A DNA stretch of 40,361 bases from contig JAQVIX010000014.1 of the NCBI GenBank assembly GCA_028695495.1, positions 1-40,361 of the forward strand, written 5' to 3'. The notes below the pieces were generated by a model. It did not search any database. It saw only the letters and a program-made list of their open reading frames with translations, and was not told where the DNA came from. Positions within the stretch are counted from its first letter, which is position 1, and the number at the start of each line of letters is the position of its first letter. This document shows positions 1,600-39,103 of this stretch, in pieces. The position numbers were made by a program, and so were the translations under genes. This DNA comes from Candidatus Cloacimonadota bacterium. GTDB taxonomy: Bacteria; Cloacimonadota; Cloacimonadia; Cloacimonadales; Cloacimonadaceae.

Positions 1600-2085
1600 T
1601 CACAATTAATTAGCTTAGTCTTCTCAAGCACCTGTAAAGCTCTTGTTTTCAGCCATTCCTTCCGGTCGAGCTAAATGAAAGCTTTAGAACCTTAAGATTT
1701 CTAATCGTCGTGCATTATCACTATATTAAATGAATCCCATAATAAAGAGATTTTGGTCTTCATTTATAAAGTTACTATTATTTCGTGCTTGTCTCTGTGT
1801 CAAGAACTTTTTTTAGTCTTTTTGGGGCTTGCTCATCTTGAAATAAGTTGACTCTTTTTGTAATGGAATTAGCATTGTTTTAGGGGTATTCTTGAGGGTT
1901 TTCTCAGGCATTGCCAAAATAATGTGCCGGACTCATGCTATTTGAGATCACTAAGCGCGCTTGAGGCTATCCAGAAACGAAAAATAACAGAATAACAAGT
2001 AATATCCGGGCATTTATTATTGCGGCATTCATTAAGGCGGAATGCCCCTAAATGCCATATCTATCAGCTATTTAGAGCATGTCCA
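1600..2085. other. Gene-free DNA upstream of the exported-protein genes
   Basis: No coding frame here resembles a known protein. The first part must contain the minus-strand promoter of the leader/exported-protein unit, but I cannot pick clear promoter hexamers. At about 1963-1977 a short sequence (GAGGCTATCCAGAAA) resembles the terminal repeat of the element at 2086-2346 with a few mismatches and may be the end of another, decayed copy. Confidence 0.5.
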
Positions 2086-2346
2086 CCGAGCAGAGAGGCT
2101 GTCCAGTAATGCCAAAACCAAACACGATATCAGGCAAAACGAGAATGTAGGGGCGCAGGGCGCCAAAGCCCGCTTTTAACAAAGCGTGCGCTAGCGCACA
2201 CCGTAATAAATTGATATTGAGTACGTAATGATTAGCTGTTGCGTGTAAATTTCGGCTGGTTCAATGCCTTGAACCCCTACATATCAGGTGTGGACATTTC
2301 TTGATATTGTGTTGTTTGCGTATTTCTGGACATCTTCTCCGCTCGG
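2086..2346 (+). mobile_element. MITE-like element, copy 1 (most complete)
   Basis: A 261-bp non-coding element bounded by imperfect terminal inverted repeats of 25 bp (2086-2110 and 2322-2346, 21 of 25 positions matching; core GGCTGTCCAGTAAT). Inside are a nested inverted repeat (ATGTAGGGG near 2145 against CCCCTACAT near 2273) and small hairpins: GTGCGC-TA-GCGCAC near 2187 and GGTTCAA-TGCC-TTGAACC near 2260. Related copies lie at 23820-24006 (reverse), 35530-35617 (reverse, fragment) and 38743-38986 (forward). There is no transposase inside, so movement would need an enzyme from elsewhere. The terminal repeats, length and lack of coding capacity fit a miniature inverted-repeat element. I could not confirm a target-site duplication. 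Confidence 0.75.
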
Positions 2347-2913: not shown

Positions 2914-4140
2914 ATGAAAATGTTAAACTGGCTACTACTTAGATTCTACCAGCTCCTATGCGAGCTCGTATATTTTTGCGCATATCCGCTCTTATGGATA
3001 TTTTTGAAAGGCAAGAACTATACAGAAGCGCTTAATGCCCGCAGCCAAACAGCGGATATCCTTATCCACGCCGCATCTTTGGGCGAAATAAATGCTTTGT
3101 GCGCCTTGATAAAACGCCTGCTTGCGGAGGGGCATAGTGTTGCGATAAATACCATTACGGTTACCGGCAAAAAACGTGCACAGGAGCTTTTTCCGCAGCT
3201 TCAGGTTCGCTTAGCTCCCTTTGATATTTTGCATCTCAAACAGCAATATCTAAAGCAACTTAAGCCTAAACTCATCCTCATTGCCGAAACCGAAATATGG
3301 CCAAATATGCTTTATGCTGCCCAAAATGCAGAGATTCCTGTTCTTTTTATAAATGCCCGCATCTCGGAAAAAAGCCTGAAAGCCTACCTGCCCATCAAGG
3401 GACTTTTAAGTATTGTATCCAATTCCGTAAAGGGAATCATGGCGCAAAGTCAAGCGGATGTCGGGCGTTTTTCCCGTATTTTCGATTTACCTATTAAGAA
3501 CCTGGGAAACCTCAAATACGCCTTGGAACTGCCGATAATAGAAAGTGAAAAACAAAGAGCTGATCTGGGATATGCAAAAAATGATTTCATTCTGGTATGG
3601 GGTAGTTCCCGCCCCAAAGAAGAAGCGCTCTTGCTTAAGGTTTTGCCAGAATTGCAACGCAAGATTCCGGAGCTAAAGCTTATTATCGCACCGCGCCATC
3701 CCAAGCGCATTTGCGAAGTGAAAGAACTACTAAAAGACCTTAACTATCAGCTTTATAGCCAGCGTAAGGCAGGAGCAGCACCAGATATTCTCTTAATAGA
3801 CGTCTTAGGGAGACTCAATGCAATCTATGCCATTTCCGATCTCAGCATTGTCGGCGGCAGTTTTGGCGATTTTGGTGGGCATAATCCGCTCGAACCAGCA
3901 TTTTACCAAAAAGCGATTATCATGGGCGGGGACTACAGTTCATGTAAGGATTCCGTTCGTAGTCTCTTGCAACGCGAGGCTATTTTGATCTCAGGTTCAG
4001 ATACGCTGGCAGGGGACATCATCAAACTGTATCTAAACCCCGCATTACGCCAGAAAATGGGGGAGAATGCTAAAAAGGTCTTGACGGAAAATGCCGCTGC
4101 GCTTTCGCTCCATTTGATGGAGATAGAAAAATGTATTTAG
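2914..4140 (+). CDS. waaA: 3-deoxy-D-manno-octulosonic acid (Kdo) transferase
   Basis: This 408-residue protein transfers Kdo from CMP-Kdo to lipid A, an inner-membrane step in lipopolysaccharide synthesis. The length is close to that of the E. coli enzyme (about 425). An N-terminal hydrophobic anchor (residues 5-30) is followed by the GT30 N-lobe with the catalytic-Glu motif SLGE (55-58) and the AETEIWPN motif (124-131). The C-lobe has the CMP-binding motifs APRHPKR and GGSFGDFGGHNPLEPA. ATG 2914 lies just after the tRNA terminator and has no visible Shine-Dalgarno. ATG 2920 is an alternative, but the hydrophobic N-terminus matches the family, so the start cannot be far off. It overlaps the next gene by 10 bases. 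Confidence 0.94.
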   Translation: MKMLNWLLLRFYQLLCELVYFCAYPLLWIFLKGKNYTEALNARSQTADILIHAASLGEINALCALIKRLLAEGHSVAINTITVTGKKRAQELFPQLQVRLAPFDILHLKQQYLKQLKPKLILIAETEIWPNMLYAAQNAEIPVLFINARISEKSLKAYLPIKGLLSIVSNSVKGIMAQSQADVGRFSRIFDLPIKNLGNLKYALELPIIESEKQRADLGYAKNDFILVWGSSRPKEEALLLKVLPELQRKIPELKLIIAPRHPKRICEVKELLKDLNYQLYSQRKAGAAPDILLIDVLGRLNAIYAISDLSIVGGSFGDFGGHNPLEPAFYQKAIIMGGDYSSCKDSVRSLLQREAILISGSDTLAGDIIKLYLNPALRQKMGENAKKVLTENAAALSLHLMEIEKCI

Positions 4141-5132
4141 AACCATACGAAGCATTATATTATGAAAAGCTGGAACATAAAGAGCTTATCTGCCATTTAT
4201 GTCCGCATAATTGCCAGCTCAAAGTGGGGCAGAGGGGCTTTTGCCGCAGTCGTAGCAATATCGACGGCACTCTGTTTGCTACAAATTACCGTAAATGCGT
4301 GGCGATTGCTGAGGATAATATCGAGAAAAAGCCTTTGTATCATTACTTTCCTGGTACGCAAATCCTATCTTTGGGACCCAATAGCTGCAACCTGCTCTGC
4401 AATTTTTGCCAGAATTACCGTATCTCCATCTTGGACGCTCCCACTAAGTTTTTAGATGAGTTTAGTCTCAATGAATTAGCATTGTTTTGTACGCCGCAGC
4501 ATCCGCAGCTGGCTTTTACCTATAGCGAGCCGCTTACCTGGTATGAATATATCAAGGAAACTGCTGAGTTTAATCCCGAATTGGCGATAGTATTGGTTAC
4601 AAATGCTTTCCTGAATATCGAGCCTTTTCAGGATTTACTGCCTTATATTTCTGCGCTAAATATCGATCTCAAAGCCATGAATAACGATTTTTATAAAGAG
4701 CAATGTAAGGGGAGATTAGCTCCGGTTTTGGATAATATCCGCTTCGCTTATGAAGCTGGCAAACATTTAGAGATTACTCTGCTACTCATTGAGGGTTTGA
4801 ATAATGCCGATGCTGAAATATCTGCCCTGGCAGGATTTATCAGCGAGCTTAGCCCGGATATCCCGCTGCATATTTCTGCTTATCATCCCGCTTTTAGAAT
4901 GAGCCTTCCCGCTACCAGTCAGGCGGCTATCGAACGCGCTATTAATATTGCCAAAGAACATTTGAATTTTGTGTATGGCGGAAACTTACGCACGCAAAAC
5001 TATATGCAAACTTATTGCCCGGTTTGCGATGCGCTCGTTATAGAACGCAGCTATGAGGGCGGCAGAAGCTTTTTGGTGGATGATAATAAATGCCCAAAAT
5101 GTGGACATACTATTTACGGGGTATTCGCTTAA
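4131..5132 (+). CDS. amrS: AmmeMemoRadiSam-type radical SAM protein (AmrS family)
   Basis: A 333-residue radical SAM protein. The [4Fe-4S] motif CxxxCxxC is at Cys86, Cys90 and Cys93 (SCNLLCNFCQN). An N-terminal cysteine cluster (Cys21, 24, 28 and 38; CHLCPHNC) and a C-terminal zinc-ribbon-like pair (CPVC...CPKCG) flank the barrel, as in the PflA-related AmrS family. AmrS members usually work with AMMECR1 and Memo partners in an uncharacterised modification. Neither partner gene is adjacent here, so the substrate is unknown. The start ATG overlaps the end of waaA, which suggests translational coupling. A pyruvate formate-lyase activase role is less likely given the extra Cys clusters and the absence of pflB nearby. 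Confidence 0.85.
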   Translation: MYLEPYEALYYEKLEHKELICHLCPHNCQLKVGQRGFCRSRSNIDGTLFATNYRKCVAIAEDNIEKKPLYHYFPGTQILSLGPNSCNLLCNFCQNYRISILDAPTKFLDEFSLNELALFCTPQHPQLAFTYSEPLTWYEYIKETAEFNPELAIVLVTNAFLNIEPFQDLLPYISALNIDLKAMNNDFYKEQCKGRLAPVLDNIRFAYEAGKHLEITLLLIEGLNNADAEISALAGFISELSPDIPLHISAYHPAFRMSLPATSQAAIERAINIAKEHLNFVYGGNLRTQNYMQTYCPVCDALVIERSYEGGRSFLVDDNKCPKCGHTIYGVFA

Positions 5133-23819: not shown

Positions 23820-24006
23820 CCGAGGCTGTCCAGTAATACACAAACAATACAACAACAAGAAGTGTCCACACCTGAAATGTGGGGGTTCAATGCCTTGAAC
23901 CCGCCGATATCTACACGCAACAGCTAATCATTACAGACTCAGTATCAATTTATTACGGTGTGCGCTGCGCGCACGCTTTGTTAAAAGCGGGCATTGGCGC
24001 CCCTGA
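23820..24006 (-). repeat. MITE-like element, copy 2 (reverse orientation, one end lost)
   Basis: In reverse complement this matches the right three quarters of the 2086-2346 element. The terminal repeat CCGAGGCTGTCCAGTAAT at 23820-23837 is intact, followed by the GGTTCAA/TTGAACC hairpin and the GTGCGC-GCA-GCGCAC stem. The match ends near GGCGCC at about 24006, so the left end is missing. It lies between the convergent ends of the PHP gene and the GyrI-like gene; the rest of the gap (23727-23819) holds two weak hairpins and no gene. Confidence 0.75.
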
Positions 24007-24790: not shown

Positions 24791-24900
24791 GAGATATAAA
24801 TGTCGGATTCATATACGCATATTTATGTACATTAGGTAGCCCAGGGTGTTCGCCTCACAAAATGAGCTTGCGAGTTTTTGGCAAGATAAACCCTGGGTAA
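24791..24900 (+). pseudogene. Relic of an IS200-like (Y1/REP-associated) transposase: start plus REP-like palindrome only
   Basis: A good ribosome site (AAAGGAG) and ATG 24800 begin MSDSYTHIYVH and then a TAG at 24833. That string looks like the extreme N-terminus of Y1 (HUH) transposases (typically M-S-x-S-Y-T-x-I-Y-I-H). After the stop no transposase sequence remains. A palindrome CCCAGGGT (24840-24847) with ACCCTGGG (24890-24897) follows, of the sort that flanks REP-associated transposase genes. I read this as an internally deleted element. The similarity rests on 11 residues, so confidence is limited. Confidence 0.4.
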
Positions 24901-35439: not shown

Positions 35440-35722
35440 AGTGTAAAATGCAAAATTAGCAAGGGTTTATCGCTGCGCTTCAAAACCCTTGGAAGATTCT
35501 GCTTCGCTTCGCTGCGCAATGAATGATGATTGAATCCGCCGAAATATACACGCAACAGCTAATCATTATGGATTGTGTGTCAATTTATTACGGTGTGCGC
35601 TTTGCGCCCCTACACTCCAGTTTCCTTAGATATCGGGCATGTTTTAGCATTTCTGGTTAGCTTCTGGCGCATAAAACCTACGCCAGTACATTCGCGACGA
35701 GCGCTGCGCAGCCATAAATAAC
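35440..35722. other. Gene-free DNA with a fragment of the MITE-like element
   Basis: This gap holds the hairpin after gltX (35461-35490), which may slow or end transcription, the element fragment at 35530-35617 and the region upstream of the ArsR operator. I see no gene. Confidence 0.5.
35530..35617 (-). repeat. MITE-like element, copy 3 (fragment)
   Basis: In reverse complement this matches the central part of the 2086-2346 element, including ACACGCAACAGCTAATCAT and ATTTATTACGGTGTGCGC. About 35 internal bases around the GCGCAC hairpin are missing, and both terminal repeats are lost. Confidence 0.65.
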
Positions 35723-38742: not shown

Positions 38743-38986
38743 TGGGCTGCCCCGAAATGCCAAAACCAAGCACGATATCAAGCAAAACGAGAATGTAGGG
38801 GCGCAAGGTTTTGCGCCCGCTTTTAATAAAGCGTGTGCGCAGCACACACCGTAATAAATTGATACATAATCCGTAATGCTTACCTGTTGCGTGTAATTCT
38901 CGGCGGGTTCAATGCATTGAACCCCTACATTTCAGGTGTGGACATTTCTTGATATTGTGTTGTTTGTATATTACTGGACAGCCTCG
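38743..38986 (+). mobile_element. MITE-like element, copy 4
   Basis: About 244 bp aligned end to end with the 2086-2346 element. Left terminus GGCTGCCCCGAAAT (degraded), right terminus ATTACTGGACAGCCTCG (intact). Internal features: GGGCGCAA/TTGCGCCC hairpin, GTGTGC-GCA-GCACAC stem, palindrome GGTTCAATGCATTGAACC, and ATGTAGGGG against CCCCTACAT. Confidence 0.75.
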
Positions 38987-39035: not shown

Positions 39036-39103
39036 CCATCCCTTCCCCTTCTTTTATGCGCAAGATCCGCGGATTTTGCGCATAAAAGAAGGGGAAGGGA
39101 TGG
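39036..39103. repeat. 68-bp near-perfect palindrome
   Basis: 33 of 34 base pairs match around the centre at 39069/39070, with one mismatched pair (39064/39075). The outer part is pyrimidine-rich on one strand (CCATCCCTTCCCCTTC) and the centre is ATCCGCGGAT. It ends 134 bases before the thrS ATG. With no loop it could form a cruciform. As RNA it would be a very stable hairpin but with no T run. Confidence 0.9.

Follow-up and report, generated by a model that had tools for sequence, protein, structure and literature searches.

A 244-bp foldback element found in the exact place of small hairpins in a Cloacimonadota genome

We have found that a 244-bp intergenic element in this Cloacimonadota genome stands in the exact place of small hairpins, and we show that hairpin and element alternate exactly at shared sites in several unrelated sequence contexts. 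This main feature was missed in the preliminary description of the window (the whole stretch of 40,361 nucleotides that was analysed, our contig C36), which had presented the family as a non-autonomous MITE. Our reasoning as to spread is that, because the element occupies precisely the position that a hairpin has in other copies of the same DNA, it appears to move by swapping in for hairpins and not by ordinary insertion. We favor the possibility, at a probability of about 0.5, that this is a species-private, non-autonomous, foldback MITE-like element dispersed by a transposase that recognises its terminal inverted repeats (TIRs) and targets the base of a hairpin.

The four related copies reported earlier in the window are present (Table 1); the best pair matches with a BLAST E value of 5e-67 and the family is not due to chance. 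All four loci stood, but their limits had to be redrawn: copy 1, previously taken as 2086-2346, had been made 9 bp too long on each side, its outer 9 bp (CCGAGCAGA and TCCGCTCGG) being flanking host repeats and not element, and copy 3 had been made too short. The latter consists of consensus 94-171 (35530-35607) and consensus 1-64 (35602-35664), and both it and copy 2 are truncated, as had been noted. Copy 4 is followed on its right by GCCATTTTATATAAC, a host motif of the type that we call beta. The cluster 5 host repeat, which elsewhere adjoins either the element or the hairpin AGCCCGTCAGGGCT, adjoins a related end, GAGGCTATCC, at 1963 in the window. The window also contains a 300-bp direct repeat (1-300 and 1115-1414, 95% identical), and a search of Rfam returned no match in it except a tRNA.

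Table 1. Copies of the element and of its host repeats in the window
Feature	Position	Strand	Description
Copy 1	2095..2337	+	full length, 243 bp, 93% identity to consensus; ends GAGGCTGTCCAGTAAT ... ATTTCTGGACATCTTC
Copy 2	23822..24001	-	truncated, consensus 65-244, 95% identity; right end GAGGCTGTCCAGTAAT intact at 23822
Copy 3	35530..35664	-	degraded; lacks right third
Copy 4	38745..38985	+	near full length, consensus 3-244, 91%
Left flank of copy 1, CCGAGCAGA	2086..2094	+	host repeat; element-free homologues have ACCCCTAACGGGGT here
Right flank of copy 1, TCCGCTCGG	2338..2346	+	host repeat; in element-free homologues the adjoining hairpin is ACCCCTAACGGGGT
Host-repeat copy	1837..1962	-	cluster 5 flank, 83%
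Element-free copy of cluster 0 host repeat	24832..24897	+	85%; edge hairpin decayed

The consensus of the element is 244 bp long (GAGGCTGTCCCGAAATGCCAAAACC...GCGTATTACTGGACAGCCTC, with GAGGCTGTCC...GGACAGCCTC outermost) and has imperfect inverted arms with well-conserved ends of 10-16 bp. The terminal inverted repeats that had been proposed do bound the element, the ends GAGGCTGTCC[CA]G[AT]AAT / ATT[AT]C[TG]GGACAGCCTC being shared in 65 aligned copies; these 65 are distinct, with a mean pairwise identity of 86% (range 77-99%). In the same alignment the ends read GAGG...CCTC and GTAG is found solely before two internal palindromes, the element thereby holding two inverted 'GTAG + palindrome' units that resemble REP/REPIN. 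The guess that copy number would be high throughout the genome (2.72 Mb in 155 contigs, judged 95% complete) was borne out: a search with the 16-bp end, allowing up to 2 mismatches, found 124 + 131 = 255 end motifs versus 2 (1 + 1) for a reversed control pattern. In the 298 kb of stretches that we fetched, a biased sample as these were picked for element copies, there were 69 near-full copies and 38 fragments. None of the 69 was overlapped by more than 120 bp by an ORF of at least 120 aa, in keeping with the gene-free location and lack of a coding frame reported for the window copies, and no larger gene-bearing repeat of which the copies could be fragments was seen. A search of other Cloacimonadota had been suggested; none of the 49 other genomes of the family that we searched yielded a copy, and in the 11 of these that are congeners the end motif occurs at background level; judged on sequence, the element thus appears to be species-private. 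The consensus folds as single-stranded DNA at -47.1 kcal/mol versus -30.0 +/- 3.3 for shuffles (z -5.15), a stability that is expected of an inverted repeat. Two-sided changes were found at 0 of 33 consensus pairs (RNAalifold, 65 copies) and a conserved functional structured RNA was ruled out on the lack of covariation in these copies.

The evidence for replacement comes from the flanks. Among the 138 flanks of near-full copies, 85 fall into clusters of shared sequence, and what these represent is one half of some other intergenic repeat, which in many cases is itself an inverted repeat. Element-free copies of these host repeats carry a small hairpin at the exact place of the element, and these hairpins include ACCCC-GTTA-GGGGT, GTCCC-GTCA-GGGAC, AGCCC-GTCA-GGGCT, ACTCC-GTTA-GGAGT, TCCCC-GTCA-GGGGA and GTTCC-GTTA-GGAAC. 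At all clear sites, what stands directly before the beta motif (GGCATTTTAGATAGC-like) is the element in 19 cases and a 14-bp hairpin in 23; on the other side, what follows a motif that we call alpha is the element in 37 cases and a hairpin in 18. An element-free homologue exists for 83 element ends, and for 66 of these a hairpin, perfect or nearly so, ends no more than 1 bp from the junction, compared with 5-23 of 83 at nine shifted positions. With the chance rate set at 23/83 the binomial tail is about 1e-22, which is only a guide since element ends are not independent. Counted by element-free site, the hairpin ended exactly at the junction in 70/220, versus 0-13 beyond an offset of 1 bp. There is no hairpin at the junction for 17 of the 83 ends, and 14 of the 69 copies have no homologous flank. 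The element-free sites are all from this one genome because the element and its host repeat R3 (see below) are absent from the 49 other genomes of the family, and in a draft assembly so rich in repeats any single junction could be misassembled.

In the cleanest pair, the 244-bp element at C38:1534-1777 corresponds to the 14-bp hairpin GTCCCGTCAGGGAC at C94:10683-10696, and the flanking bases are identical at 58/60 and 57/61 positions. Elsewhere the same host site holds R3, a foldback of 306-313 bp (C57, C96, C75), or a 506-bp insert (C33). When C39 is compared with C74, ACCCCGTTAGGGGT has been replaced; the right flank matches at 58/60 and the left flank at 43/63 over 60 bp, with near-identity over the inner 30. 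C126 and C90:5491, compared with C57, have the element in place of CATTGCGAGCCTGCGAGCAAT, and the copy at C61:27535 stands where relatives have CTGCGCTTGCGCAG, in this case with lower flank identity (37/63 and 47/64). Relative to the host repeats, the element occurs in either orientation. Two alpha-type flanks are joined in some copies; simple replacement would not produce this arrangement, and for these copies later recombination must be assumed. In addition, both flanks are common to C39 and C143, and likewise to C8, C58 and C78, which indicates that composites have been duplicated or recombined.

The element is also nested within copies of itself. On C110, C74, C58, C57, C127 and C90 one end of the element abuts approximately position 106 of another copy, where the sequence is ACCGTAATAAATT or a variant, and on C50 an element is directly preceded by GCTTTTGACAAAGC of another copy, a sequence whose end is at approximately position 90. 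Taken together, the junctions at ~106 and ~90 identify the missing piece as the central hairpin GTGCGCGCAGCGCAC. Since almost every copy retains this hairpin, it is the older of the two states where nesting is seen. The halves of copies that are missing were probably lost through recombination between the direct repeats that nesting creates. R3 is a second species-private foldback family (loci L194-L205, among them C57:11939-12329 and C96:3228-3611), measured at 306-313 bp between host flanks, with 117 first-look candidates in the genome and none in the 49 other genomes of the family. Another set of repeats consists of perfect palindromes with stems of 18-38 bp (window 39036-39103; C74:6825, C143:10971, C68:4136, L197, L203 and others), in which the outer bases CCCCAGCCC... 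are shared and the inner stems are wholly different yet perfectly paired; from their sequence, it seems that each hairpin is exchanged or corrected as one unit.

The preliminary description had suggested looking for target duplications and for a complete transposon that shares the ends of the element, and neither was found. Comparison of left and right flanks in 42 copies gave no excess identity at lengths of 2-10 and offsets of -2 to 2; the element lacks the target-site duplication that is a hallmark of MITEs. A search of the draft assembly with five Pfam transposase families (matches: PF01609, 2; PF01797, 2; PF02371, 1; PF05598, 0; PF00665, 1 clear) found no transposase carrying the ends of the element, and the enzyme is therefore hypothetical. 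The earlier assignment to non-autonomous MITEs thus holds for form and distribution; it does not extend to target duplication, and the five families searched gave no partner transposon with these ends. Several individual genes were considered. A single IS1634-family element (L116, C12:1300-3392) lies approximately 230 bp from a copy; it was rejected as parent as its 17-bp inverted repeats, TAACCGAACTTTACCAT, are unrelated to the element. A DDE transposase on C68 was also rejected, no matching ends being seen. On the same contig a 439-aa IS4-like transposase gene adjoins a gene tentatively read as encoding an FGE-sulfatase-type protein, and a Y1 gene of IS200 type, truncated so that its N-terminal part is missing (L115, 4407-4733, minus strand) lies between inverted copies of the element (3847-4088, plus; 4789-5030, minus). 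C80 encodes a RAYT-like Y1 transposase of 190 aa (L136, C80:14476-14721) amid tandem GTGGCATCTTGCCAC / GGTGGTTGTGGCATC repeats, with which it likely forms a REPtron of its own; it is not flanked by the 244-bp element. The single IS110-type gene (L214, C25:693-947 and upstream) does not have element end motifs at both sides, and an element-like fragment, GAGGCCGCCCGGAAATGCCAAAAACATGCAGGATATC, lies approximately 250 bp from this ORF.

In the scenario that we favor, the target would be the base of a hairpin extruded from the DNA as a cruciform. A TIR-recognising transposase would join both ends of the element across the four-way junction at this base, and the hairpin would be left as a flap and then lost. 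Loss of the hairpin as a flap would result in exact replacement, no target duplication and insertion in both orientations. Subsequent homologous recombination between copies may have reshuffled the flanks and made tandem and half copies. Both the TIR transposase as agent and the four-way-junction geometry are what we infer from these features. More tentatively, it is possible that hairpin is exchanged for hairpin in general; that is, an enzyme may recognise the base of a fold and exchange the fold in its entirety, with neither a duplication nor a scar left behind, such that 14-bp hairpins, the 244-bp element and R3 would be interchangeable.

The main rival, which we regard as doubtful, is that an HUH/Y1 enzyme (IS200/IS605, RAYT or a TIR-associated tyrosine transposase) takes single-stranded DNA of the lagging strand as its substrate, recognising hairpin folds, cutting at their feet and exchanging folded units, of which the element would be the largest. 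Such an enzyme would leave no target duplication, and the whole element does fold as a single strand and contains the REP/REPIN-like GTAG units. Precedent comes from two papers, which describe Y1 genes flanked by inverted repeat copies, as the truncated gene on C68 is, under the name TIRtron (PMC3733652), and REPINs that insert into or beside other REPINs (PMC3116915). Set against this, the C68 gene is the sole Y1 gene beside the element and is truncated, the longer RAYT-like gene sits amid other repeats, and the outer ends of the element do not have the GTAG tag. Furthermore, Y1 insertion has an orientation that is fixed relative to the target, whereas the element is seen in both.

Two other explanations were considered. 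One, which is unlikely, reverses the direction of change: hairpins would be remnants left when the element or R3 was deleted by recombination between its arms. Each end of R3 has a 14-bp hairpin, and recombination between these would leave exactly one at the host site. Nevertheless, the hairpins ACCCCGTTAGGGGT, TCCCCGTCAGGGGA, CTGCGCTTGCGCAG and CATTGCGAGCCTGCGAGCAAT are not derivable from the ends of the element; in the nested cases the alternative to the element is its own central hairpin, which almost every copy has; and among R3 copies retrieved independently of the element the edge usually has the hairpin, the element being seen at one edge. From the nested cases and the element-free majority among independently fetched host-repeat copies we infer that the hairpin is older than the element. 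The other, which is likewise unlikely, is that an ordinary DDE MITE made a few insertions into hairpin-bearing repeats, the composites spreading by gene conversion and amplification while target duplications eroded. The loci sharing both flanks are consistent with this, as is a mean pairwise identity as low as that found; it is at odds with the recurrence of exact replacement in unrelated hosts and in copies of the element itself. Moreover, at ~7-14% divergence a duplication of 2-9 bp would still be statistically visible in 42 copies, and there is none. If small hairpins are indeed exactly replaced by a larger foldback, this would be a kind of DNA mobility in which the target is lost and not duplicated. 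Hairpin replacement would then explain the nesting and diversification of palindromes in bacterial intergenic DNA, and it bears on the spread of REP-like palindromes and of MITEs without a parent, which is an open question. Sites at which hairpin and element naturally alternate between near-identical flanks provide ready-made substrates for enzyme tests.

The element resembles bacterial MITEs in its size, terminal inverted repeats, lack of a gene, high copy number and intergenic dispersal; it differs from them in having no target-site duplication and no parent that we could find, and in standing in place of a hairpin rather than adding to its target. ANME archaea have gene-less MITEs of 42, 107 and 181 bp in many copies that end in GAGGCTGTCC.R.AAT (L137, L146, L148, L151, L159 and L160 in an ANME-3 archaeon; L140, L145 and L156) and thus share the 10-bp end of the 244-bp element, with no similarity seen beyond the ends. 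Unlike the element, most of these have a TA at either side, the pattern that a TA target duplication would give; this, and the lack of an autonomous copy in the loci examined, led us to discard them as leads to a parent IS. For IS110/IS1111, whose DEDD enzymes target hairpins, the comparison covers the IS110-type gene on C25. REP/BIME/REPIN sequences with their RAYTs, and TIRtrons, share with the element palindromic inverted units, clustering and nesting (PMC3733652, PMC3116915), and the C68 Y1 gene flanked by inverted copies recalls the TIRtron arrangement of the former paper, the difference being that this gene is a fragment. The element further departs from both groups in its length of 244 bp and its specific ends, GAGGCTGTCC, where the GTAG (or CGTC) found at the foot of a mobile REPIN/RAYT hairpin is absent. 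A non-exhaustive literature search for nested or replaced palindromes gave no matching paper, and the parts consulted of papers on REPIN/RAYT, TIRtrons and GC clusters gave no description of exact hairpin replacement (PMC3116915, PMC3733652, PMC4478555). Mitochondrial GC clusters (PMC4478555), for which a putative AG target duplication has been reported, and double-hairpin elements (named in PMC7218506) are organelle elements of tens of bases; like the element, they are mobile palindromes that merge, shuffle and occur in alternative forms at one homologous site.
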